13,008 bases of DNA from Spirochaetaceae bacterium (GTDB lineage: Bacteria > Spirochaetota > Spirochaetia > Treponematales > Breznakiellaceae), in NCBI GenBank assembly GCA_031284085.1, contig JAITAM010000073.1, positions 1-13,008 on the forward strand, written 5' to 3'. Of this stretch, positions 2,065 to 12,559 are shown piece by piece. The position numbers were made by a program, and so were the translations under genes. Positions within the stretch are counted from its first letter, which is position 1. The number at the start of each line of letters is the position of its first letter. The notes below the pieces were generated by a model. That model was given only the letters and a program-made list of their open reading frames with translations, was not told where the DNA came from and did no database searches.

Positions 2065-2940
2065 TTAGATATTGGTGGCCAGTTCCTCACGGATGTAGCC
2101 GGTCTCTAAAGCCAAGAGGTATTGCCCCCATTTGCCCGCCCAATCCCGCAATTCCTGAATACCAAGCGGGGAAGGAACCTGCGATTCCGTGTGGGTTGCT
2201 ATCTTCTCCGCAAGGCTTAGGTAAACCTTAGCTTGGGCGGAAGCAGGAGCCGCTTCGATAGTCGTCTTGCCTTGCAGTTCGCATTGAGTAACGGTTACCG
2301 AGCGAGGAATGTATTCGACGACGTGCGTTTTGGTTTTACAGGCGAAATCGTCTATAATCTCTTTGGCGTAGGGGCGGTTGATAGAATTGGCAATGACGCC
2401 GCCCAAGAGCGCCCCGCCTGAATTGGAGTACTTTTGTATGCCTTTGAAGAGATTATTTGCCGCATAGAGCGCCATAAAATCGGCGGAGGACACGGTAAAC
2501 ACGTGTTCTGCGATACCCTCGCGGATCGGCACGGCAAAACCGCCGCACACTACATCCCCTAGAACATCGTAAATGACAAAATCAAGGTCCAAGTCCTCAA
2601 AGATGCGCTGCTGCTTAAAAAGCTCCACCGCCGTGATGATGCCTCTCCCCGCGCAACCCACGCCCGGCGCAGGGCCGCCGGCTTCCACGCAATACACGCC
2701 GTTAAATCCAGTAAAAATGACGTCGCGGGCATTGACCGTGTTTTTTTCCCGCAGGGTGTCAAGCACCGTTGGGATATAAGTTCCATCACGGAGCGTATTG
2801 GTTGAATCGCTTTTTGGATCGCAGCCGAACTGCATTACCTTGAATCCGAGCTGCGAAAGCGCCGCGCTTAAATTGGACGTCGTTGTCGACTTGCCAATAC
2901 CGCCCTTGCCATAAATTGCAATTTGCTTTATTTTCCCCAT
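2065..2940 (-). CDS. NifH-like nitrogenase-family Fe protein (MarH candidate)
   Basis: This homodimeric ATPase of 291 residues carries a shared [4Fe-4S] cluster and passes electrons one at a time to a NifDK-like partner. The P-loop GKGGIGKST is at residues 11-19, the DPKSDST segment at 41-47, and the cluster cysteines are C96 (in GVGCAGRG) and C132 (in [10 protein letters not shown]). These positions are essentially those of classical NifH. The arginine after C96 that is ADP-ribosylated in some NifH proteins is also present (R99). An upstream ATG at 2964 lies inside the preceding gene. The ATG at 2940 is preferred because aaggag (2949-2954) sits eight bases before it, inside the end of the NifX-like gene, one base after whose stop this gene begins. 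It is last in the cluster, so expression is probably coupled. Its context points to methylthio-alkane reduction rather than N2 fixation. Confidence 0.9.
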
Positions 2941-2941
2941 T

Positions 2942-3286
2942 TTATTTTCTCCTTGTCCGTACATAGTACGCCGCTAATTTTTTAAGAGCCTCTTCAATAA
3001 CGGCAGGTCCTTCAAACAGATCAATACCGGCTTCTTCCAAGCGTTTCTGAACGGCAAAGCCGGCCTTTACTGCAAGTACCGCAGTACAATCCTGAAATGT
3101 ATCAAGGGTGAATTCCGGCGGCTTGTGATCTTCACAAGAGGCGCAGAGCGGCTGAAAGAGCCGCCTTTCTACGGTTTCACTCGTACCATCAGGCTCTAAA
3201 TCCCGTATATAAAAATATCTCGACCGTCCAAAATGTTCTGTTACCAGTACATTATCAATGCTTGCCAGCGCTATTCGCCACGACAT
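2942..3286 (-). CDS. Stand-alone NifX-like cofactor-binding domain protein
   Basis: The 114-residue product is a single dinitrogenase iron-molybdenum cofactor biosynthesis domain (NifX/NafY/NifB C-terminal family). The opening RIALAS, then [13 protein letters not shown], is the hallmark strand-loop-strand, and a CASCEDH motif lies at about residues 48-54. In NifB fusions this domain sits at the C-terminus of the radical SAM protein; here the NifB-like protein lacks it and this gene supplies it separately. Such domains bind or carry NifB-type iron-sulfur cofactor precursors, so I infer cofactor shuttling between NifB and the NifDK-like protein. The ATG has a near-ideal aaggagg five bases upstream. 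It lies 237 bp downstream of the NifB-like gene across a repeat-filled gap. Confidence 0.85.
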
Positions 3287-3523
3287 AAAATCCTCCTTAA
3301 ATAAGCGCAGCCTTTCCCAATCCGCCGGCGGGTCTCAAAGTTCCGGCGGTGTATCAGAAACAGCGGACAGCTTTTTACCCACAAGAGTCTGCGCCTGTCC
3401 CTTGTCTTGCTGCTTGTAGGCAAAAAGCCCTGCGTCCGCCTTTGGTGCCAACGCCGAACACTAGAAGCAAGCTGGCCTGCCGCCTTTGATGCCAACACCG
3501 AAGTTTGAAACAGCCTTATGCTG
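3287..3523. repeat. Repeat-filled gap inside the operon
   Basis: Two inverted copies of the dispersed repeat fill the gap between the NifB-like and NifX-like genes. A 23-bp block (3436-3458, beginning ccgcctttggtgcc) recurs at 3480-3502 with two mismatches, period 44. An aggcaaaaagcc core (about 3418-3429) lies next to it. Nearer the NifX-like gene, a 7-bp perfect hairpin (ccgccgg/ccggcgg, 3322-3349) lies about 35 bases upstream of its start. No T-run follows, so it is not an obvious terminator. Confidence 0.6.
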
Positions 3524-4381
3524 CTAACCGTGGGAGAAAGTCTGTTCTGTTTGTGATGAGAACAGATCCTTCTTACCCAAAATACCACAAGCATCGGCAC
3601 GACAGTGTTGACAATGCCTGAACACAGGAAGAAATTCCTCCGCCGCTTTTCGTGCAAGACCTATATCAATACAGTCCGGCGCCTGAAAATCAATGAATTC
3701 GTACTGTGGTATCAATGGAATAATGTTGATAATGCCGGCGCCTAAACCGCTAAGGGTTCGAGCAATCTCTGCTATATGATCGCCGTTTATCGGCGGTATT
3801 AGCACCGTATTTATCTTTATTACCATCCCCAAATCCGCCGCTTTTTGTATGCCCCGCTTTTGCGCTTCAATCAAAAGCGCAGCCCCTTCATACCCTTCAT
3901 ACCGAACCCCATCCACGATGATATAGGCGCAGATTTGTTCTAGAATAGACGGCTCAACCGCATTGACCGTTACAGTTACCGTTTGGACGCCGGCATGAAA
4001 CATATCAAGAGCGCAGCGCTCAAGCAATAGGCCGTTAGTGCTTAAACAGTTAATCATCTCCGGAAAGTTTTGATAAATAAGCCTGAACGTTTGCAGCGCA
4101 TGAGGGCTTGCCAAAGGATCGCCTGGGCCTGCAATACCTACAACGGTGATTTCCGGACATAGTTCAAGCGCATTTTTTATATAGGGAACCGCTTCAAAAG
4201 GCTCAAGAAGGCGGGCGGTAACGCCGGGGCGGTTTTCGGTTTTATTAAAGGTGCGTTTACAGAACCGGCACTGTATGTTACAAACAGGGCTTACCGGCAG
4301 ATGTATACGGCCGCGGTTCATAGAAGCTTGAGTAGAAAAGCAAGGGTGCCTATTGGCAATGTGTAAAAGCTGAGCGTTCAT
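3524..4381 (-). CDS. NifB-like radical SAM cofactor synthase (MarB candidate)
   Basis: NifB uses radical S-adenosylmethionine chemistry to fuse [4Fe-4S] clusters around a carbide, giving the 8Fe core of nitrogenase-type cofactors. This 285-residue protein has the radical SAM motif CNIQCRFC (C34, C38, C41) preceded by HLPVSPV, an HPC at residue 14, the ENRPGVTARLLEP segment at about 49-61, and the NifB-typical C-terminal CQHCRADACG (C257, C260). These are NifB-specific features, not just generic radical SAM ones. It lacks the NifX-like C-terminal domain, which is a separate downstream gene. The start is supported by gaggag nine bases upstream, and the gene lies 21 bp after the NifK-like stop. 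No NifE/NifN is encoded here, so the NifB product may be inserted into the NifDK-like protein with little further maturation, as proposed for Mar enzymes. Confidence 0.9.
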   Translation of the reverse strand: MNAQLLHIANRHPCFSTQASMNRGRIHLPVSPVCNIQCRFCKRTFNKTENRPGVTARLLEPFEAVPYIKNALELCPEITVVGIAGPGDPLASPHALQTFRLIYQNFPEMINCLSTNGLLLERCALDMFHAGVQTVTVTVNAVEPSILEQICAYIIVDGVRYEGYEGAALLIEAQKRGIQKAADLGMVIKINTVLIPPINGDHIAEIARTLSGLGAGIINIIPLIPQYEFIDFQAPDCIDIGLARKAAEEFLPVFRHCQHCRADACGILGKKDLFSSQTEQTFSHG

Positions 4382-4402
4382 AGTCCATATCTCCTCATGG
4401 TA

Positions 4403-5728
4403 TTACCGGTATGTTCCTAAGGCTTGGTTATAAATATCCTCAATAAGGCGCAGACCGCCGCGATAACCGGCGTAACCGCTGGTCATCACAAGCCGGTAAG
4501 GGGAAGGAAGGGCGGCGGATAAGAAATCATAGTGTTTCTTCTGGGCAAGCTCTTTATCCCACCCGCTGCCGATTATTAAGCCGCGGCCTTCATAGTGCGT
4601 GTTAAGGATATGCTCTTGAGCGAGACCTGCATCCGGTTGAAAATAAAGCGGAATAGTCTTCTTTGAAGAAATACCGGCGGCTTCTTGTTCAATAGCCTGC
4701 CGGTACTGTTCCGGCGTCTTATCGGTAATAAACTGCTCTTTCGGTACGATACCAGTCTCATGCAGGAGAAAACGCGCCATTCCTAATACATAACTTGCGT
4801 CATGTATGATATGCACAAAGGCGGGCAGCCCGTAGCGGAATTCCAATAAGAAAGTCGCCAGATTATCAATCTCTTCATAAAACATCCATTCTTCTCCTTG
4901 GATGAACTGTTCCGCATCAGCAACGGAAAGCCCCGCGCCTTTCTCGTTAGCATAAGCGATCAATTCCCGCAGAAAACGGGTCGTCTCATTGCCGCCGATG
5001 GGGATATAAGGGAATTGATAAAAGGGCTGATCGTATTTTTCTTGGAGATGCTGCACAACTGGAAGGCCGAACCACGGGGAAATCACAATATTGAAATTAG
5101 CCTTGGGAATTGTTTTCCATTCTTCAACACCCTGTGCATAAGGCCCGAAAAGGATGTTGACTTTAAGCCCTATTCCCTCGATAAGCCGCTTGTACTCTTC
5201 TAAATTACCCTTCCAAAAAGGGTCTTGGTAGGGAATGGAGGCAAAAAGGTTGACTAACCGAGGATCTTTTTGCGTATCGGAGTTAAACCGGCTGACAAAC
5301 TGATCAATAATTGCATTGACAACCGTGCTGTGAGCCTCATAGTTGGTACCCTTAAACCCGGGAGTATCTACAAATACAATGGGCTTTCCCTCTTCGGCAA
5401 AAAGCTTTGTTACTCGTGCAATATCATCGCCGACAATAGCGGATGTGCAGCCAGTTAAAACTACCTGCACATCACTGTTGAGTATCTTGTATGAATGGCG
5501 GATGATCTTCTCCAGTTTTGCCTCGCCGCCGAATACCACATCCGTTTCAGAAAAGTTGGTGCAGGGAGCCGTATTACCGCCTGAATAACCGGTCGAGCGC
5601 TCAAAAAAGCCCGCTACCATAGTTCCGCAGCCGGGACCGGAATGGAGAATAGGGAGCGCGCGCTTAATCGCTACCACAGTCTGCATTGCGCCAATCGAAC
5701 ACATAAAACGCTGCTGTTCAATCATCAT
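4403..5728 (-). CDS. NifK-like nitrogenase component 1 beta subunit (MarK candidate)
   Basis: The 441-residue protein belongs to the nitrogenase component 1 (oxidoreductase) family. Cysteines for a P-cluster are all present: C10 (RFMCSIGA), C34 (HSGPGCGTM) and C94 (LTGCTSAIVGDD), with spacing close to NifK C70, C95 and C153. The TNFSETDVVFGGEAKLEKII segment (about 57-76) is the family's conserved loop. It lacks the long N-terminal extension of true NifK and is about 80 residues shorter. Its partner is the NifD-like protein encoded 24 bp upstream. There is an aagga before the start, and two adjacent ATGs (5728, 5725) could both be used. NifN or NifE identity is less likely because this is the only beta-type subunit in the cluster. 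Confidence 0.88.
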   Translation of the reverse strand: MMIEQQRFMCSIGAMQTVVAIKRALPILHSGPGCGTMVAGFFERSTGYSGGNTAPCTNFSETDVVFGGEAKLEKIIRHSYKILNSDVQVVLTGCTSAIVGDDIARVTKLFAEEGKPIVFVDTPGFKGTNYEAHSTVVNAIIDQFVSRFNSDTQKDPRLVNLFASIPYQDPFWKGNLEEYKRLIEGIGLKVNILFGPYAQGVEEWKTIPKANFNIVISPWFGLPVVQHLQEKYDQPFYQFPYIPIGGNETTRFLRELIAYANEKGAGLSVADAEQFIQGEEWMFYEEIDNLATFLLEFRYGLPAFVHIIHDASYVLGMARFLLHETGIVPKEQFITDKTPEQYRQAIEQEAAGISSKKTIPLYFQPDAGLAQEHILNTHYEGRGLIIGSGWDKELAQKKHYDFLSAALPSPYRLVMTSGYAGYRGGLRLIEDIYNQALGTYR

Positions 5729-5752
5729 TACTGTATTTCCTTAATAATAGAA

Positions 5753-7219
5753 TTATGATTCTAGAAAGCTGTACGGGTCTTGCGCCAGCCACCATTGAGT
5801 GTATGGATTAACCGCATGTTTCTGGAAATTCTTAACGAATTCATCATTCTCTAATGTTTCTAGAATCCGTTTGCCGTATTGAACAAGCCCTTGATAGCCC
5901 ATGCCGAAATGCTCATCTCCAATCAAGAGCGACGGGATGCCGAACTTTGCCCCCCACAGGGTCATGCCGCCGTGCCTTGCAAGCAGAATATCGGGGCGGG
6001 TTTTGTACAGAACGTTGACCAGCTCAAATTCCTGCTTATTGCAGACCGTGTAGTGGGGAATATCCCCGTAGTCATTAACCACGTTCTGCAAGGTATCCGC
6101 GGCTACAGCCCCATTGTCGTACAAAGGATCATGGTGAAAGATTGCCGCGCCATAAGGCTGCATACCGAGCTCCTTCAGCACGGCAAGCAAAGAGTGTCCA
6201 TGCGAAGCGCCCGCGGTAACGTATGCGCTCTTGCCTGAAAGCTTTTCCCGCAGTTCTTCCAGCGCCGGCGTCCATCGTTCTCGTTCTTTCTGAAGAAAGG
6301 TTTCAACCGCTTGTTCGCGGCCGGTTATCCTGCCCAATTCTCTGAACCACCGTTCCGTCTGCGTAATGCCGTAAGGTGGAGATACTTTTATTTCAGGCAC
6401 GCCAAACCCTTGTTCCAAAGCGGCTCCCAAGTAAGAGCCAAGTGTTGCGCATACCTGCATGGTGGCGGCAGCCTCTGATGAGGAGGCGATCTGGGCGACT
6501 GTGGCAAAGGGGGTGAGGTAATTCGCCCGTAAGCCCAGCTCTTTGAACCATTCGCCGATAGAATCCGCTCCCCAGAAATTGATCACATTAACTAAATCAT
6601 CCTGCTTCTTCTTTGGTTTTTTGATAAGCTTGCGGGCTATTGCATGGTAGCCTGCATCAAAGCCGCTTGTCCAAATCTTTGATCGAAAGCCTTCGCAGAA
6701 AACAGCCACAACCGGGATGCCTATCTCCTCTTCAAGTTCATCCGCTACCCCCTGCACATCGTCTCCAATAATGCCTGATGCGCAGGTTGTGATGATGAAA
6801 ATGGCATTGGGCTTGACCCGCTGGTGGACTTCGCGGATTGCCTGTGCCAATTTCTGGCTTCCACCATAAACTGTGTCCTTCTCTTCCAGATTGGTGCTGA
6901 ATATTCGGCGCTGCGCCGGTTCAAAAACATTGCGATGAACGCCGTTGACTCGATAGGTAAAGGCGAATTCGTGCAGGCAGCCTGCGCAGCCTACGGGGCC
7001 GTGGCTTATCACCGCGGCATCCTGTATTAAGATAAGGGTGCAGGCCGCGTTTGATGTTGAACATCCTAGACATTGGCTGAAAGAACGGTTTTTTTCTTTC
7101 AGAGAGCCTTGTCGGGCGCACGTTACCAAATCGGCTGCGGTGCCGGAATAGCCTGTAATTGATCCGAGCCGTGTTTCTCTAACCGGTACGGTCGAAGACC
7201 GTAAATTGATTTCACTCAT
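5753..7219 (-). CDS. NifD-like nitrogenase component 1 alpha subunit (MarD candidate)
   Basis: This 488-residue catalytic subunit is first in the reductase cluster. P-cluster cysteines are C53 (QCLGCST), C78 (ISHGPVGC) and C146 (TTCASGIIGDD), matching NifD C62, C88 and C154 with one-residue spacing changes; C50, C60 and C81 are extra. C257 (MQVCATLG), placed before GFGVPEIKVSPPYGI, lines up with the NifD cysteine that holds the active-site cofactor, so a cofactor is probably bound. The second NifD ligand, a histidine before the Y-x-G motif, is not in the same column: I see IGDEHFGMGYQG with H437 three residues later. Classical NifD residues around the homocitrate are not recognisable. The start follows aaggag by five bases. 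The combination fits group IV nitrogenase-like enzymes such as methylthio-alkane reductase. Confidence 0.88.
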   Translation of the reverse strand: MSEINLRSSTVPVRETRLGSITGYSGTAADLVTCARQGSLKEKNRSFSQCLGCSTSNAACTLILIQDAAVISHGPVGCAGCLHEFAFTYRVNGVHRNVFEPAQRRIFSTNLEEKDTVYGGSQKLAQAIREVHQRVKPNAIFIITTCASGIIGDDVQGVADELEEEIGIPVVAVFCEGFRSKIWTSGFDAGYHAIARKLIKKPKKKQDDLVNVINFWGADSIGEWFKELGLRANYLTPFATVAQIASSSEAAATMQVCATLGSYLGAALEQGFGVPEIKVSPPYGITQTERWFRELGRITGREQAVETFLQKERERWTPALEELREKLSGKSAYVTAGASHGHSLLAVLKELGMQPYGAAIFHHDPLYDNGAVAADTLQNVVNDYGDIPHYTVCNKQEFELVNVLYKTRPDILLARHGGMTLWGAKFGIPSLLIGDEHFGMGYQGLVQYGKRILETLENDEFVKNFQKHAVNPYTQWWLAQDPYSFLES

Positions 7220-7569
7220 TGTTACTCCTTTTTTTTAAGGCTTAAAGCCTTGTCTTAGGCAGGCGGGAGCCGCCGTTTAACGAGGGCGGACTTGAGACCC
7301 TACCTTTTCTTTCTGTTAATCCGAGTTGGATTACAACCCTGATCCGACTAAACCGCCAAAGCCAAACGGCTTTGACCTGCCCTTGAGGTCTGCCTCTTTT
7401 TGAGCCGCACCTTCAACTATTCTTGCGGAACTGATCTTTCTTTTTATAAAGAAGCATACATTTTTCCGCTCTTATCAAGAATACCATACTCACAAGAGAT
7501 ATTTTCCTCTCTAAGAACACTTCATTTTTAACTAAGAATACTCCATTTTCGGTCTGCATTTGCTGCTTA
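7220..7569 (-). promoter_or_regulatory. Structured leader/control region of the nitrogenase-like genes
   Basis: No gene is seen here. On the minus strand this region should carry the promoter and 5' leader of the NifD-like gene. A 7-bp perfect hairpin (caaagcc/ggctttg, 7357-7374) and a short palindrome (aaggct/agcctt, about 7238-7252) immediately before the ribosome binding site are visible. Two direct repeats starting ctaagaa lie 21 bp apart at 7511-7529 and 7532-7549, with a weaker third at about 7475. I could not identify a convincing -35/-10 pair, a sigma-54 site, or a known riboswitch class. A TTTATAAA block at about 7443-7450 is the best -10-like candidate. Confidence 0.4.
7511..7549. 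repeat. 21-bp-period direct repeat, possible operator
   Basis: The block ctaagaacacttcattttt (7511-7529) is followed by ctaagaatactccatttt (7532-7549), two mismatches, with starts 21 bp apart (two helical turns). It is about 300 bp upstream of the NifD-like start, outside the dispersed repeats. A regulator-binding role is inference. Confidence 0.4.
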
Positions 7570-7838
7570 CAGGCAAGAAGCCGTATGCTGGCCTGAGGTC
7601 TGACCCCTGGTCCCGCTTCCTACAGGCAAAAAGCCGTACGCCTGTCCCGTTACAAGAACCTTAGAAACAGGCTAGCCTGACCCCTTGTCCCGCTTCTTGC
7701 AGGCAAAAAGCCGTACGCCTGTCCCGTTACAAGAACCTTAGAAACAGGCTGGCCTGACCCCTTGCCCCGCTTCCTACAGGCAAAAAGCCGTACGCCTGTC
7801 CCTGTTACAAAAACCTTTGAAACAGGCTAGCCTGCCTG
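7570..7838. repeat. 77-bp tandem repeat array
   Basis: Units begin at 7623, 7700 and 7777, each with caggcaaaaagccgtacgcc, giving an exact 77-bp period. Units 1 and 2 differ at about four positions. Unit 3 diverges in its last third, where it runs into the metQ stop codon. A degenerate 53-bp unit starts at 7570. Each unit contains two short inverted repeats (caggc/gcctg, and cctgt/acagg spanning ccttagaaacagg). The units are contiguous with no unique spacers. The core is the same as that of the dispersed repeats elsewhere, in inverse orientation. Confidence 0.85.
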
Positions 7839-8750
7839 CTAGAAGGCGGGAATAACTGCACCTTTGTATTTCTCCTCGATAAATTGACGCACGTCTTCAC
7901 TGGTCAAAGCTTGGTATAAAGCCTTGATAGCAGGATCGTTTACCCTGCTGGATTTTACTCCAAGAATATTCGCATAAGGAGAATCCTTCCCTTCTCTAAA
8001 AAGGACCGTCCCAGTATCTATTCCAGCCTCAAGCACCTTATTCGTGTTGGTGATGTAGGCGTCAAACTGATCCCGCACCCGAATAATCGCAGCCGAATCC
8101 AACTCCACAAGGGTAATTGGCTTTATATACTCGGCCACGTCCAAAGTGGTGGTGGAATAAACATCCATGTCCTCCTTCAACCTGATAAACCCGTTCTCCG
8201 CCAGTATGGTTAAAGCCCGAAACTCATTAGTCGCATCGTTCGGTATGGCAATCGTTGCATTGTCAGGCAGCTCTTCCTTTGTCCGATGCACCTCAGAATA
8301 AGCGCCTATGGGTTCAACATGTATGTTCCCCGCATTTACCACATCGTAGCCCTGCTCAGCCACCACCGATTTCAAATAGGGTTCATGCTGGAAGAAGTTC
8401 GCGTCGAATTCTCCTACCGATGTCTTTTCGTTTGAAGTGGTGCCGTCAATGACGGTAACAATCTCAAGGTCTATTCCCTGCACCGCAAGCTTGGGAGAGA
8501 CGAATTCAAGCAGCTCCGTGTGAGGCACTAAATCTGCTACCACCACCAGTTTTGTCCGTTCCAAAGCAGCGCCGGCCACCTCAACCGTGGCGCTTGTCTC
8601 AGGAGAAGCGCTCTTGTTTTGCTCATTTTTATTTCGTTCGCAGCTTGCGGTTATGAAAACCATCATAACCATAATCATTTCTAGAGCTCTCGGAACCCTT
8701 TTTAGAGCTTCATGTTTATCCGCCCAAGAAAAACCAACTACCCTTTTCAT
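7839..8750 (-). CDS. metQ: MetQ-like substrate-binding lipoprotein
   Basis: This 303-residue NlpA/MetQ-family protein is the periplasmic-face binding component of a methionine-type ABC importer. A lipobox (FITASC, lipidated Cys37) follows a hydrophobic stretch, IMVMMVF. The n-region is unusually long (about 24 residues), yet aaggag six bases before the ATG at 8750 supports this start over M24. The mature protein shows TKLVVVADLVPHTELL, then GEFDANFFQHEPYL and ITNTNKVLEAG, all typical of MetQ. The segment that normally reads Y-x-x-P-N before the GE-D-A-N motif is GTTSNEKTSVGE here, so the ligand may not be plain methionine; a methylthio compound or methionine derivative is possible. It lies 57 bp after metI across a strong hairpin. 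The stop codon abuts the tandem array. Confidence 0.9.
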   Translation of the reverse strand: MKRVVGFSWADKHEALKRVPRALEMIMVMMVFITASCERNKNEQNKSASPETSATVEVAGAALERTKLVVVADLVPHTELLEFVSPKLAVQGIDLEIVTVIDGTTSNEKTSVGEFDANFFQHEPYLKSVVAEQGYDVVNAGNIHVEPIGAYSEVHRTKEELPDNATIAIPNDATNEFRALTILAENGFIRLKEDMDVYSTTTLDVAEYIKPITLVELDSAAIIRVRDQFDAYITNTNKVLEAGIDTGTVLFREGKDSPYANILGVKSSRVNDPAIKALYQALTSEDVRQFIEEKYKGAVIPAF

Positions 8751-8774
8751 ACAATACTCCTTAATACAATCAAT

Positions 8775-8797
8775 ACAATCAGCCGCCGGCTGATTGT
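8775..8797 (+). terminator. Hairpin with T-run between metI and metQ (plus-strand sense)
   Basis: A 10-bp perfect stem (acaatcagcc/ggctgattgt) with a 3-base loop is followed on the plus strand by six T residues, the layout of an intrinsic terminator for antisense transcription. In the gene-sense (minus) direction the T-run becomes an A-run before the hairpin, so it would not terminate well there. In the mRNA it may instead act as an intercistronic stem that protects or processes the metN-metI and metQ segments. Confidence 0.5.
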
Positions 8798-8807
8798 TTT
8801 TTGCCGC

Positions 8808-9521
8808 CTATATCAAATGGCGTCTTTTCAAGATATACCGTGCGACTCTTTCGCCTAAAAACTGCACCGCGTTTACCAAAACAATAAGCACCAGCACGGA
8901 GGCAATAAGGATATCCGCACGGAAACGGTTATAACCGAAGCGCACCGCTACGTCCCCTAGCCCGCCTGCGCCAAAAGACCCCGCCAATGCGGTAGTGGAG
9001 ATGATCGCTATGATGGCAATGGTGAAGTTGCGCACCAAAGCTGGCAGCGCCTCAGGCAGCATGATCTTAAAAACAATTTCTCTATTCCGTGCGCCCATCG
9101 CTTTTGCCGCCTCCAATTTGCCTTTGGAGACTTCCACTATGCTGCTTTCCACCAAGCGGGCGAACATTGGGATACACGTTATCGCCAAAGCAATAATACA
9201 AGCCTTAGGGCCGTAGGATATGCCGATGATCAGCCGTGAAAGCGGGAGCGTTAAGATGATGATGATCATTGACGGCATGGAACGGAGGGCGTTGATAACC
9301 GCCCCTACCACCGAATTGAAAATCGGCATGGGGTAAAGTCCGTCTTTATCGGTCAGTACTAAGAGTATTCCTAAGATGAGGCCGAAAAAGCCGGTCAGCA
9401 CGGTAGTAAGCAAGACCATATAGAGCGTTTGGCTGATGGAAGGAGTTACAATCCCCCACGTTGATGCGCTAAAAGCGTTCTTTATGGTGGTTAATAATTT
9501 GGTAAGTCCGCCGTTGTTCAT
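8808..9521 (-). CDS. metI: MetI-like ABC transporter permease
   Basis: This 237-residue inner-membrane permease has about five hydrophobic membrane segments. They include the stretches around TLYMVLLTTVLTGFFGLILG, VVGAVINALRSMPSMIIII, ACIIALAITCIPM, IAIIAIISTTALAG and ILIASVLVLIVLV. The coupling-helix region EAAKAMGARNREIVFKIMLPEALP is the EAA motif that contacts the ATPase. SFGAGGLGDVAVRFGYNRF is strongly MetI-like. An upstream TTG at 9542 extends the frame, but the ATG at 9521 overlaps the metN stop as ATGA, the standard arrangement for translational coupling, and is preferred. It works with MetN and MetQ to import methionine or a related sulfur compound. Confidence 0.92.
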   Translation of the reverse strand: MNNGGLTKLLTTIKNAFSASTWGIVTPSISQTLYMVLLTTVLTGFFGLILGILLVLTDKDGLYPMPIFNSVVGAVINALRSMPSMIIIILTLPLSRLIIGISYGPKACIIALAITCIPMFARLVESSIVEVSKGKLEAAKAMGARNREIVFKIMLPEALPALVRNFTIAIIAIISTTALAGSFGAGGLGDVAVRFGYNRFRADILIASVLVLIVLVNAVQFLGERVARYILKRRHLI

Positions 9522-10306
9522 ATACCGCTGCCGTCCTGCCAATCATGGTTTGAAAAATCCCTGTTTATCTTCATAAATAGTTTTGCTGTTTCGCTTTTTG
9601 GATTGCTAAATATGCTTTTTACGCTTCCGGCCTCTACTATAAGCCCTTCTTCAAGAACCGCAACGCGGCTGCACGCATACCGGATTAAATCAAGCTCATG
9701 GGTGATGAGGACAATGGTAAGTCCCAGCTTTTTATTGATGTCCATGAGCAAATCCAGAATGGAAAGGGATGTGAGAGGGTCTAAAGCAGAGGTAGCCTCA
9801 TCACTCAACAAAATATCCGGATGATTTGCCAGCGCCCGTGCGATGCCGACTCTTTGTTTCTGTCCGCCTGAAAGCTGCCCGGGATAAAAATCCCATTTTC
9901 CTGAAAGTCCCACTAAGTCCAGTATCTCCATGACCCGTTTTTTTATAGTATCCCGTTTTTCTCCGGCAACCTCCAAAGGAAAGGAGACATTGCCGAAAAC
10001 GGTGCGGGAGTCTAAGAGGTTGAACTGTTGGAAGATGATACCGATCTTTTGCCGATATTTTTCAAGCTCTCGAAGCGAAAGACCGGTAACTTCTCTGCCG
10101 CCTAAAGTAATGGTTCCGGAATCGGGAGTTTCAAGTCGGTTGATACAGCGGATAAGGGTTGTTTTACCCGCGCCGCTGAACCCCACAATACCAAAAACAT
10201 CACCTTTTTCGATTTCCAGATTGATCCCTTTCAAGACGGCAAAGTTTTTTCCACGGCTTTGGAAAGTTTTCTGTAAACCTTCTATCCGTATAAATGCTTC
10301 AGACAT
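9518..10306 (-). CDS. metN: MetN-like ABC transporter ATPase lacking the regulatory domain
   Basis: The 262-residue ATPase powers the MetNIQ importer. Walker A is GFSGAGKTT (42-50), the Q-loop is near 93, the signature is LSGGQ (145-149), Walker B is ILLSDE (165-170) and the H-loop His is at 203. Classical MetN is about 340 residues and ends in a NIL (ACT-like) domain that binds methionine and shuts the transporter down. Here the protein stops about 20 residues after the end of the nucleotide-binding domain, so that domain is absent with no sign of a frameshift into it. I infer transport that is not feedback-inhibited by internal methionine. The start codon has only a weak Shine-Dalgarno (agaaag) and lies 26 bp after metY; the stop overlaps the metI ATG. 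Confidence 0.93.
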   Translation of the reverse strand: MSEAFIRIEGLQKTFQSRGKNFAVLKGINLEIEKGDVFGIVGFSGAGKTTLIRCINRLETPDSGTITLGGREVTGLSLRELEKYRQKIGIIFQQFNLLDSRTVFGNVSFPLEVAGEKRDTIKKRVMEILDLVGLSGKWDFYPGQLSGGQKQRVGIARALANHPDILLSDEATSALDPLTSLSILDLLMDINKKLGLTIVLITHELDLIRYACSRVAVLEEGLIVEAGSVKSIFSNPKSETAKLFMKINRDFSNHDWQDGSGI

Positions 10307-10332
10307 GGTTAAATCTTTCTAAATTCCTGTAA

Positions 10333-11640
10333 TTAGGATGCGCCAAATACTTTGGCGAAAGCCTGCTCCAGATCGGCTATCAAATCTTCAGGGTCTTCCA
10401 AGCCAAGAGAAAGGCGGATCAGATTTGACTCTATAGCGGCGTACTCTTGTTCTTCCTGAGTCAATTCGCTGTGAGTTGTTTTTGGAGAATTGACAATCAA
10501 TGATCTGGCATCTCCTACATTGACATGGTAGCTCCACAGCTGTATCGCATTAAGGAATGCCTCGCTCTCTTCTATAGTTCCCTTGAACCCAAAGGAAAAG
10601 ATGCCGGGGATGCCCTTAGAGAAGTATTTCTTGCCGCGCTGGTAATACCGGCTCGACTCCAACCCTGAATACTGTATCCATGCGACATGTTTATTTTTCT
10701 CCAAGTAGGCAACTACTTTTTTGGCATTTTCAAGCTGTTTTTGTACCCGTTCAGAGAGCGTTTCAATGCCGATAAGCGTTAGATAGGCATCAAAAGGGCC
10801 AAGGGCAGCGCCAAAGTAGTTAAGGTATGTTAAGCGGATTCGGCTTACAAACGGCGCTTGCGGTACAGCTTCTAAGAAGCTGCGCTTTTTGCCGGTACTT
10901 CGATCACGGAGGACGTACTCTTCTTTCTGCAACTGGGGAAAGTTCCCGTTATCCCAGGGGAATTTGCCGGTTTCTACTATTAAACCGGCGATCAAATTGC
11001 CATGTCCATTGAGGGCTTTTGTTGCAGAATAAATGACGATGTCTGCGCCATACTGGATTGGGTTAAGGAGATATGGAGTTGCAAAGGTATTATCCACTAC
11101 AAGCGGGATACCGTGCCGGTGGGCAAGTGCCGCAAGAGCTTCAAGATCGGCAATAGCGCCGGTTGGATTGCCGATTGATTCAACAAAGATAGCCTTAGTA
11201 TCCGGCTTAATCTCTTTTTCCAGTTCCGAAGGATTATCAATAAGAGCCTTAGACTGATCGAAATGGATACCAAAATTAGGGAAAATCCGCTGAAAAGCAT
11301 CGCTGCTTCCACCGTACAGATAGGGACTTGCCAGTATCCGGCCGCCGCCTTCTGCTAAGGTTAGAAGCGTATAGGAAATTGCCGCCATACCGGAAGCAAG
11401 CGCAAGAGCTGCGCTGCCGCCGTCAAGCTCCGCAACCCGCCGCTCCAGAATATCTACCGTCGGGTTATTTACCCGCGTGTATAAAAACCCCGGTTCAGTC
11501 AATGCAAAAAGCCCGTCGGCGTTTTTGGTATCACGGAATTCATAAGCCGTTGTTTGATAGATCGGCGGCGAAACCGCCTGATTATGTAAAGCCGGATCAT
11601 AGGCGGCTCTGACTTTAAGTGTGTCAAAATGATAAGACAT
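10333..11640 (-). CDS. metY: O-acetylhomoserine sulfhydrylase / aminocarboxypropyltransferase
   Basis: This PLP-dependent Cys/Met-metabolism family enzyme has 435 residues, the usual length for O-acetylhomoserine sulfhydrylase. It swaps the acetyl group of O-acetyl-L-homoserine for sulfide (giving homocysteine) or methanethiol (giving methionine directly). The PLP lysine is K208 in YSATKALNGHG. YTRVNNPTVD (54-63), ALASGMAAI (79-87), VESIGNPTGAI (153-163) and VVDNTFATP (181-189) are the other family landmarks, and SLGLEDPEDLIADLEQAF is at the C-terminus. The long insert around residues 225-255 is typical of MetY rather than cystathionine gamma-synthase. The start follows gaggag. Its position next to a nitrogenase-like reductase and MetNIQ suggests the methanethiol reaction is the relevant one here. 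Confidence 0.93.
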   Translation of the reverse strand: MSYHFDTLKVRAAYDPALHNQAVSPPIYQTTAYEFRDTKNADGLFALTEPGFLYTRVNNPTVDILERRVAELDGGSAALALASGMAAISYTLLTLAEGGGRILASPYLYGGSSDAFQRIFPNFGIHFDQSKALIDNPSELEKEIKPDTKAIFVESIGNPTGAIADLEALAALAHRHGIPLVVDNTFATPYLLNPIQYGADIVIYSATKALNGHGNLIAGLIVETGKFPWDNGNFPQLQKEEYVLRDRSTGKKRSFLEAVPQAPFVSRIRLTYLNYFGAALGPFDAYLTLIGIETLSERVQKQLENAKKVVAYLEKNKHVAWIQYSGLESSRYYQRGKKYFSKGIPGIFSFGFKGTIEESEAFLNAIQLWSYHVNVGDARSLIVNSPKTTHSELTQEEQEYAAIESNLIRLSLGLEDPEDLIADLEQAFAKVFGAS

Positions 11641-11704: not shown

Positions 11705-12520
11705 TTATTTTGGGCTTATAGCCCAAACCCGACTGGTAAAACCCGTTCCATTTTTTAGTTTAGGGAACGTAACAAAAACGATTGCTCCAACCGAAGGTAC
11801 TTGGTCGAGATTTTTTAACAGCTCTACATTTAATCTGCCGTGATCAAGAACGTAATCTTCACCGATAAAACCGACGGTTGAACCGGTGAGTGCAGAATCG
11901 GTGTCCGGTGTTTCATGCCCTACCACCGCCGCATTACGTACCTCAATAAGGTATTTAAGCGCTTCAATATCCCAACCCGGATAATGAGAATTACCGCTCT
12001 CATCTTTATTTTCATATTCAATAGCTGTCCGTTTTGACCAATCGCTACGGAATGCAACAAACGATCCTGAGGGGATTTGTCCGTACTGTGCTTCCCAATC
12101 TAAGATATCCTGTTTGGTGAGGACATAATCCGCATTAGCAGCAACTGCCGCGGATCTATCAATGACTACCAAAGGATAAACTAAGTCCTGCACATTGTAC
12201 TCGTGTGTGAGCCGTCCGTTAGGATCAAAATGCCCGGGAAAATCGGTATGCGTGCCGTACTGTCCGGATAACGTGTATTGATAAGCAAGAAAAACACCAT
12301 CGGTATTTTCAAATGTATAGAGCGGTTTTATCTCAAGCGGATTAAATCCATACCAGTGCGGTGTATCAGGGCTTAGCTCAAAGCTCAAGTCCACCCATTG
12401 GTAATCGGATTTCCATTGTTCAAGTGTATTCCATAAAGTGTATGTACTATCCCTTCTCGCACTTGCAAATGCGAGGAGGGAGTTTACGACTAGCAGTACT
12501 ACTAATAGATTTTTTTTCAT
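11705..12520 (-). CDS. Secreted cyclase-family metal-dependent hydrolase
   Basis: This 271-residue protein belongs to the cyclase / kynurenine-formamidase-like family (isatin hydrolase, Pfam cyclase), which hydrolyses amide or ester bonds using a bound metal. MKKNLLVVLL then NSLLAFASA is a signal peptide (about 1-21) with no lipobox cysteine, so it is probably periplasmic. The metal motif is GQYGTHTDFPGHF (86-98): H91, D93 and H97 are present, but the first histidine of the usual H-x-G-T-H-x-D-x-P-x-H is Gln87, as I recall for a GQWGTH-type subfamily. VGHETPDTDS (200-209) is the second conserved block. An ATG at 12556 extends the frame, but ggagg ten bases before the ATG at 12520 selects the latter. 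It is first in the minus-strand locus, 64 bp from metY. Its substrate is unknown. Confidence 0.82.
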   Translation of the reverse strand: MKKNLLVVLLVVNSLLAFASARRDSTYTLWNTLEQWKSDYQWVDLSFELSPDTPHWYGFNPLEIKPLYTFENTDGVFLAYQYTLSGQYGTHTDFPGHFDPNGRLTHEYNVQDLVYPLVVIDRSAAVAANADYVLTKQDILDWEAQYGQIPSGSFVAFRSDWSKRTAIEYENKDESGNSHYPGWDIEALKYLIEVRNAAVVGHETPDTDSALTGSTVGFIGEDYVLDHGRLNVELLKNLDQVPSVGAIVFVTFPKLKNGTGFTSRVWAISPK

Positions 12521-12559
12521 TTCAAAAATTCCTCCATAAATACTATAAAATTGCATTCT

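Follow-up and report, generated by a model that had tools for sequence, protein, structure and literature searches.

Methylthio-alkane reductase (MAR), the MarBHDK system of Rhodospirillum rubrum, releases methanethiol and a hydrocarbon from dimethyl sulfide, ethyl methyl sulfide, and methylthio-ethanol. It is a nitrogenase-like enzyme that reduces acetylene but not N2 (PMC12552129). Arg428 of its catalytic subunit MarD, in the pair Arg428-His429, was suggested in the same work as a hallmark dividing MAR from nitrogenases, in which Gln191 and His195 are described as essential for N2 reduction (PMC12552129). A further nitrogenase-like system, IsrBHDK of Rhodobacter capsulatus, is likewise proposed to cleave a carbon-sulfur (C-S) bond for sulfur assimilation; its IsrD has neither the cofactor ligands nor two of the P-cluster cysteines, and its IsrB is BciD-like (PMC11423573). 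Group IV-A (Nfa) is used in papers from 2021 to 2024 as the exception showing N2 fixation within group IV (PMC8399215, PMC9147875, PMC11257099), and one of its carriers, Endomicrobium proavitum, is reported to take up 15N2 (PMC9147875, PMC8399215). Here we describe an Nfa-type island in a Spirochaetaceae metagenome-assembled genome (MAG; 1.78 Mb, 67.6% complete). It consists of ten minus-strand genes in the order cyclase, metY, metN, metI, metQ, a 619-bp gap, then D, K, B, X, and H, on a 13,008-nucleotide stretch that forms an entire contig of the MAG (C160; hereafter the window). Judged by gene content, residues, and phylogeny, the island probably encodes a group IV-A C-S reductase that works like MAR and feeds methionine synthesis.

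The nearest prior work is a 2026 study of large termite spirochaetes, in which group IV nifD/K genes lie beside leucine-rich-repeat (LRR) and cysteine synthase genes and for which the authors suggest a role in sulfur metabolism (PMC13067680). A literature search, with the founding MAR and E. proavitum papers outside its scope, recognized no paper that ties Nfa to metY or reinterprets E. proavitum.

The catalytic subunit and its clade

In a search of the PDB, the nearest solved structure of the window D was R. rubrum MarD (450 bits, against 125 for the next protein). An AlphaFold model of D from 30 sequences (mean predicted local distance difference test [pLDDT] 82.4; predicted template modeling score [pTM] 0.85) matched MarD 9fmg_A with a template modeling (TM) score of 0.90 and a root mean square deviation of 2.4 Å, whereas nitrogenase and NifEN chains, at ranks 4 to 50 among the matches listed, scored 0.64 to 0.71. 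Identity between D and MarD is 43% over aligned columns. Window residues Cys53, Cys78, and Cys146 align with the P-cluster cysteines of MAR (MarD 66, 91, and 158), Cys257 and His416 with the cofactor ligands Cys270 and His429, and Arg415 with Arg428. Trp183 and Phe187 stand at the positions of nitrogenase Gln191 and His195, as do Trp195 and Phe199 in MarD, and His362 is also present among the residues checked. In all, 12 of 13 checked MarD sites are kept, the exception being His194, which is Ile182 in the window; of the pocket residues His194, Trp195, Phe199, and His375, three of four are thus retained. The pattern extends to 83 D rows with at least 50% identity to the window D (80 distinct sequences), every one of which keeps MarD Cys66, Cys73, Cys91, Cys158, Cys270, Trp195, Phe199, His375, His376, Arg428, and His429; position 377 is Asp in 82 rows and Glu in one.

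Trees of D (a 65-row quick tree and a 25-row careful tree) place the window and E. proavitum proteins together in the Nfa clade with support of 99 (quick) and 98/98 (careful). The sister set that holds MarD has moderate support (91; 89/88), and the larger clade uniting it with Nfa (99; 98/97) consists of members bearing Arg-His, except for L059, an Arg-Gly row present in the quick tree only. In the careful tree, 14 Arg-His rows form one clade (98/97), within which the eight Nfa rows form a clade of their own. MarD itself pairs with another His194-bearing D, L094_9059, and the two lie outside Nfa (100; 100/100), and a grouping of Nfa with Nif apart from the rest was rejected (p-AU 0.003, careful tree). 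By these trees, D belongs to group IV-A, sister of the MAR clade (IV-C). The initial annotation, which had called the locus a MAR island, holds insofar as MAR proteins are the nearest structures and the ligands are kept; it gives way on phylogeny, in which D falls not with MarD but with the Endomicrobium-type group IV that it had listed as an alternative.

The closest database proteins to D are labeled Treponema sp. and Spirochaetaceae, and the organism, related to termite-gut treponemes, probably belongs to the Breznakiellaceae of termite guts. The D of Treponema primitia is 83% identical, and that of the Treponema endosymbiont of Eucomonympha, a termite-gut flagellate, is 81% identical. The nearest relative with a published claim of function is E. 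proavitum D (P0020; 77%). Cultured carriers of Nfa are E. proavitum, Acetobacterium tundrae, Ruminococcus albus, and Clostridium luticellarii.

Sulfur genes linked across the clade

Linkage was assessed in a contig scan, in which the best 80 of 570 matching stretches gave 79 loci, 74 of them treated as Nfa (L078 to L151) and the other five as canonical Nif; certain pairs of rows (L039/L078, L079/L175, and L127/L176) represent the same contig, and L147, whose D is cut short (44%), is among the 74 loci and outside the 83 residue rows. Genes were counted within 10 kb of D, with thresholds of at least 450 bits for a strong metY and at least 150 bits for a Cys/Met pyridoxal-phosphate (PLP) enzyme. 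A strong metY occurs in 30 of the 74 loci, a complete MetNIQ importer in 21 (a count that leaves out SsuA-type importers), and one or the other in 45. Any Cys/Met PLP enzyme is found in 44, and a PLP enzyme or MetQ in 52, rising to 38 of 45 among loci of at least 15 kb. At the same thresholds a strong metY was found in none of 29 other nitrogenase-like loci and none of seven canonical Nif loci, although these controls are fewer, all 29 belong to the family of the window organism, and a weaker PLP match is present in three of them. The initial annotation had suggested looking for the same neighborhood in other spirochaete genomes; a strong metY lies near D in six of 11 relatives of the window organism (the window included), as well as in two of four Endomicrobia. 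On this evidence the sulfur context is clade-wide.

The window MetY shares 67% identity with its nfa-linked counterpart in A. tundrae and 59% with that in E. proavitum, but only 43% with the second MetY of the same genome. By sequence it is a paralogue linked to nfa clusters, closer to the nfa-linked MetY proteins of other phyla than to that second copy. Pairwise distances of D and MetY across 22 linked pairs correlate (r = 0.74; none of 2,000 permutations as high), with species relatedness left in. A search of 39 relatives matched MetY in 25, usually as a single copy and never as more than three; the linked type (at least 77% identity) occurs in four, every one of which also has D. In the MetY tree, rows L180 and L181 were disregarded as extraction errors with very long branches; with them included, three changes are needed to explain the "linked" label, and six linked rows (L084, L087, L088, and three from Paenibacillus) fall with or beside housekeeping MetY.

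Importers of MetNIQ type are linked in the window, in genomes G002, G015, and G070 (metI and metQ only), and in the 21 named loci, while SsuA/NMT1-type binding proteins take the place of MetQ in E. proavitum, G150, and G030. The linked ABC genes of G038 and G048 match MetN and MetI weakly. This exchange of MetNIQ for SsuA-type components suggests that the linked importers bring in the sulfur substrate and not methionine.

Comparison with described operons and partner proteins

Among the described systems closest to the island is the Nfa operon of E. proavitum, which likewise unites MetY with D, K, X, B, and H. Its order is metY, an SsuA-family binding protein, permease, ATPase, D, K, a MetQ-like remnant, X, a CGL/CGS-type gene, a CysK/CBS-type gene, B, X, and H. 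It differs in that its importer is of the SsuA family (plus the MetQ-like remnant) where the window has MetNIQ, in its additional CGL/CGS- and CysK/CBS-type genes where the window adds a cyclase, and in belonging to an organism described in print as N2-fixing. The Nfa D and K are the only D/K proteins of that genome. A MetA/HTS-family gene was not found in the E. proavitum genome, so O-acylhomoserine would need another enzyme there. CysK-type genes are also linked to Nfa in G030.

With MarBHDK the island shares six P-cluster cysteines, both cofactor ligands, Arg428, Trp195, Phe199, and His375, along with a NifB-like maturase, a MarH-type reductase, and the predicted fold. Apart from the sister clade, the lower identity, and the change at His194, it differs in having a separate X, a linked metY and importer, and the gene order D-K-B-X-H, which the initial annotation had correctly contrasted with the R. 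rubrum arrangement. IsrBHDK resembles it as a nitrogenase-like system with a proposed C-S cleavage, but the window keeps the cofactor ligands and its B is NifB-like. Mo-nitrogenase NifHDK shares the fold and the P-cluster cysteines; it differs in Gln191 and His195, which are replaced in the window, and in its separate clade, and no NifEN was found in the 67.6%-complete MAG.

The other subunits also point to MAR. The nearest structure to K is MarK 9d9u_C (384 bits, against 70 for the next), and Cys10, Cys34, and Cys94 of the window K correspond to MarK Cys32, Cys56, and Cys121, kept in 80 of 80 aligned rows including MarK. For H the nearest structure is R. rubrum MarH 9fmg_D (483 bits, against 276 for the next chain), and the P-loop and Cys104/Cys140 are conserved. 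Apart from this H, the MAG yielded one weak match of NifH type (25 to 27 bits) and no other full one. The B protein matches the NifB structures 7bi7/7jmb/7jma with 263 bits and carries HPCF and CNIQCRFC motifs; by sequence it probably makes an Fe8S9C cluster, and X is a possible cluster carrier.

Proposed pathway

Because MAR is the nearest structure, the metal ligands are kept, and the linkage to MetY and an importer recurs, C-S cleavage feeding methionine synthesis, as initially annotated, is the best reading of the island. Residues, clade, and context agree in predicting C-S reduction that supplies sulfur for amino acids. From the gene content, ligand residues, clade, and recurring linkage observed, we infer a cluster identity, a substrate, a product, and a possible release of hydrocarbon along the following lines. 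The NifB-like B would build the Fe8S9C cluster, X could ferry it to D, and Cys257 and His416 would hold it there. With ATP, H would send electrons through the P-cluster shared by D and K to the cluster on D, where a small imported sulfur compound, probably a methyl-bearing thioether, would lose its C-S bond. The released thiol, most likely methanethiol (an identity to which we give somewhat better than even prospects), would go to the dedicated MetY, which would combine it with O-acylhomoserine into methionine. The CGL/CGS- and CysK/CBS-like genes of related operons could pass sulfur on to cysteine. The O-acylhomoserine would come from the product of a MetA/HTS-family gene of the same MAG, which lies outside the window on contig C61; the earlier description of the pathway as self-contained was thus too strong.

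If this reading is correct, a clade cited as the N2-fixing exception within group IV would instead serve sulfur salvage, and surveys counting Nfa as diazotrophic would overestimate N2 fixation. It would also predict that methanethiol, and perhaps ethylene or methane, is produced in termite guts and rumens. The replacement of His194 by a hydrophobic residue, consistent in the Nfa pocket, offers a lead on substrate range. It is an even call whether Nfa is a second widespread family of thioether (C-S) reductases supplying methionine and cysteine in anaerobic guts and soils, with 15N2 uptake by E. proavitum at most a weak side reaction of a protein bearing Fe8S9C.

Alternative functions

Several observations weigh against a methionine-feeding C-S reductase. 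The sole experimental claim met for a close relative, E. proavitum, is N2 fixation. The position of MarD His194, which lies near the proposed substrate site, is Ile in 45 of the 83 rows, Val in 22, Met in 14, and Leu in two, and never His. The 74 loci contain 44 H-type proteins that reach 250 residues; scored against the window H, 37 of these gave 253 to 287 bits, like canonical NifH (five of which gave 260 to 272), and seven gave at least 482. The type of reductase that acts with the Nfa D-K pair, or is linked to it, hence seems to vary; this variation neither follows from nor excludes a C-S reductase and may count toward N2 fixation. Neither a PLP enzyme nor MetQ was found in 22 of the 74 loci, 15 of them shorter than 15 kb and seven not. 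MetY enzymes accept sulfide as well. The importer varies between MetNIQ and SsuA-like types, which leaves the substrate uncertain. MetH or MetE families occur in five of six genomes checked, all but the window's own, in whose MAG (67.6% complete) no domain of either family was found. A regulatory link, which speaks for the methionine reading where it occurs, is rare: an S-adenosylmethionine (SAM) riboswitch was found in one of 52 loci scanned, that of C. luticellarii (L126), where one of its two copies stands beside nfa genes, ahead of metN-metI-metQ-D-K with a 15-bp metQ-D spacing and followed by a terminator-like sequence (by eye).

The enzyme could be a true group IV-A dinitrogenase, with sulfur genes nearby because cluster assembly or growth on N2 raises the demand for sulfur. 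Besides the canonical-like H proteins, this would fit the close identity to the D of E. proavitum, where the only D/K pair coincides with reported 15N2 incorporation. It also gains from reports of NifEN-independent cofactor synthesis by a Roseiflexus nitrogenase (PMC11573651) and of some 15N2 reduction in vivo in Escherichia coli by Fe8S9C-bearing NifEN, and even by NifB (PMC13245594). The latter result equally means that weak uptake need not mark a main function. We nevertheless judge a dinitrogenase quite unlikely, given that Gln191 and His195 are Trp and Phe in all 83 rows and the Arg428-His429 pair is invariant, that the neighbors belong to methionine and cysteine metabolism, and that Nfa occurs in G014 and G030 alongside a four-gene cluster of Nif D/K/E/N kind elsewhere in the genome (residues and tree placement of that kind were checked for G030 only). 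In E. proavitum, too, the sulfur operon and the MAR-type pocket argue for a role other than N2 fixation. The initial annotation had set against itself a placement inside a diazotrophic clade with NifE/N elsewhere in the genome; the clade does hold a reported diazotroph, and no NifE/N was found in the incomplete MAG, whose D/K proteins are the window pair and one pair on contig C190, neither of Nif kind. No weight was placed on the absence of NifEN as evidence against N2 fixation, since a NifEN-free nitrogenase has been described (PMC11573651). Acetylene tests cannot decide the matter, as MAR also reduces acetylene (PMC12552129), and acetylene reduction by Heliophilum (PMC9147875) was set aside as evidence of N2 fixation for the same reason. 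As the relatives of the window D include the E. proavitum enzyme credited with N2 fixation, that claim deserves a direct re-test.

A C-S reductase need not yield methanethiol, and the product could be sulfide, sulfite, or a larger thiol from a sulfonate, an S-alkyl amino acid, or another organosulfur compound. The SsuA/NMT1-type proteins of E. proavitum, G030, and G150, the linked CysK-type genes, the use of sulfide by MetY, and the departure from MarD at His194 all lean this way, and the related Isr is proposed to free sulfite from isethionate (PMC11423573). We regard this as unlikely, however, because the pocket is otherwise MarD-like and unlike that of Isr, and because 21 of the 74 loci carry a complete methionine-type importer. 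An ordinary group IV-C MAR would account for the best structural matches and the common ligands, but is highly improbable with MarD grouping with L094_9059 outside the Nfa clade and only 43% identity. Three assignments were rejected along the way: strict MAR membership, by trees that place D in the sister clade IV-A; canonical Nif, by active-site residues and tree; and Isr, by the retained cofactor ligands.

Gene content and genomic setting of the window

The NifDKBXH-like, MetY, and MetNIQ genes reported in the initial annotation are all borne out by Pfam and NCBIfam profile matches (Table 1). The NCBIfam scores of MetN, MetI, MetQ, and the O-acetylhomoserine sulfhydrylase are below curated cut-offs, and these names are accordingly given at family level.

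Table 1. Features of the island in window coordinates, with profile support.
Feature	Position	Strand	Support or remark
NifH-like reductase, MarH/NfaH type (H)	2065..2964	-	Fer4_NifH 327 bits
NifX-like Nitro_FeMo-Co protein, 114 aa (X)	2942..3286	-	PF02579 55.6 bits; 23-nt overlap with H
NifB-like radical SAM enzyme (B)	3524..4381	-	nifB 258 bits, below model cut-off of 344
K subunit	4403..5728	-	Oxidored_nitro
D subunit, putatively catalytic, NfaD clade (group IV-A)	5753..7219	-	Oxidored_nitro
619-bp MetQ-D gap	7220..7838		three 77-nt tandem repeats at 7600-7830
MetQ-type substrate-binding lipoprotein	7839..8750	-	Lipoprotein_9 218 bits; MetQ/NlpA models below cut-offs
MetI-type permease	8808..9542	-	PRK10782 MetI 154 bits, below cut-off of 212
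MetN-type ATPase	9518..10306	-	ABC_MetN 312 bits, model positions 2-244 of 343, below cut-off; C-terminal part unmatched
MetY, O-acetylhomoserine sulfhydrylase family	10333..11640	-	TIGR01326 472 bits, cut-off 495
Cyclase-family (PF04199) hydrolase	11705..12556	-	PF04199 127 bits; apparent signal peptide, by eye

Since a long, repeat-bearing gap separates MetQ from D, the island may comprise two transcription units. Scans of this gap gave no promoters (0.5 in shuffles) and two terminators (1.3 in shuffles), and an Rfam scan of the window gave no match. Its 77-nt repeat belongs to an interspersed family with at least 69 matches in the MAG (40 of 314 candidates scored), and the same gap in G002 holds a different repeat-like sequence. 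In the 52-locus scan, a T-box in L100 precedes trpB/trpA-like genes (by eye), a second T-box occurs in L120, and two tRNAs and one sRNA family were also matched.

The cyclase-family hydrolase of the window island has counterparts at the islands of G002, G038, and two Endomicrobia; relatives lie near D in loci L038, L043, L172, and L174, and near D in none of the 74 named loci. At positions 693-1928 on the plus strand, convergent with H, lies a gene for an LRR-like protein (by eye); LRR genes beside group IV nifD/K have been described in Pillotina (PMC13067680).

Other nitrogenase-like loci

The second D-K pair of the MAG lies on contig C190 (L005, 4339-7140) beside an ABC transporter of polar-amino-acid type (by eye), on a contig that has neither H nor B. 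Its D keeps the P-cluster cysteines and Cys270 and has neither Arg-His nor the Trp. Similar pairs occur in relatives L060 to L064 and L066, and the C190 pair may share the H and B of the window.

Two other D groups (L048 to L054 and L055 to L058) have Trp195, Phe199, and Arg-His without Cys73, and are perhaps, by these residues, other C-S reductases. The H-D-K clusters of two genomes from the window's family, each a single contig (L073, 8354-9775; L076, 9391-10800), encode a D without Cys66, Cys158, and Cys270, near the description of the isethionate reductase subunit IsrD. Some loci combine several D genes. Ruminococcus sp. UBA7013 (L094, 950-13500) holds an Nfa D-K pair and a MarD-type D-K pair with His194 in one locus, together with two Cys/Met PLP enzymes, B, and H, and L172 (10538-14759) has two tandem Nfa D genes, separated by the gene for an NMT1/SsuA-type binding protein, and a single K. 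Sporomusa sp. KB1 (G122, L127; C1:2888189-2971167) carries nine nitrogenase-like D genes of several types within about 83 kb, 31 to 60% identical to E. proavitum D.

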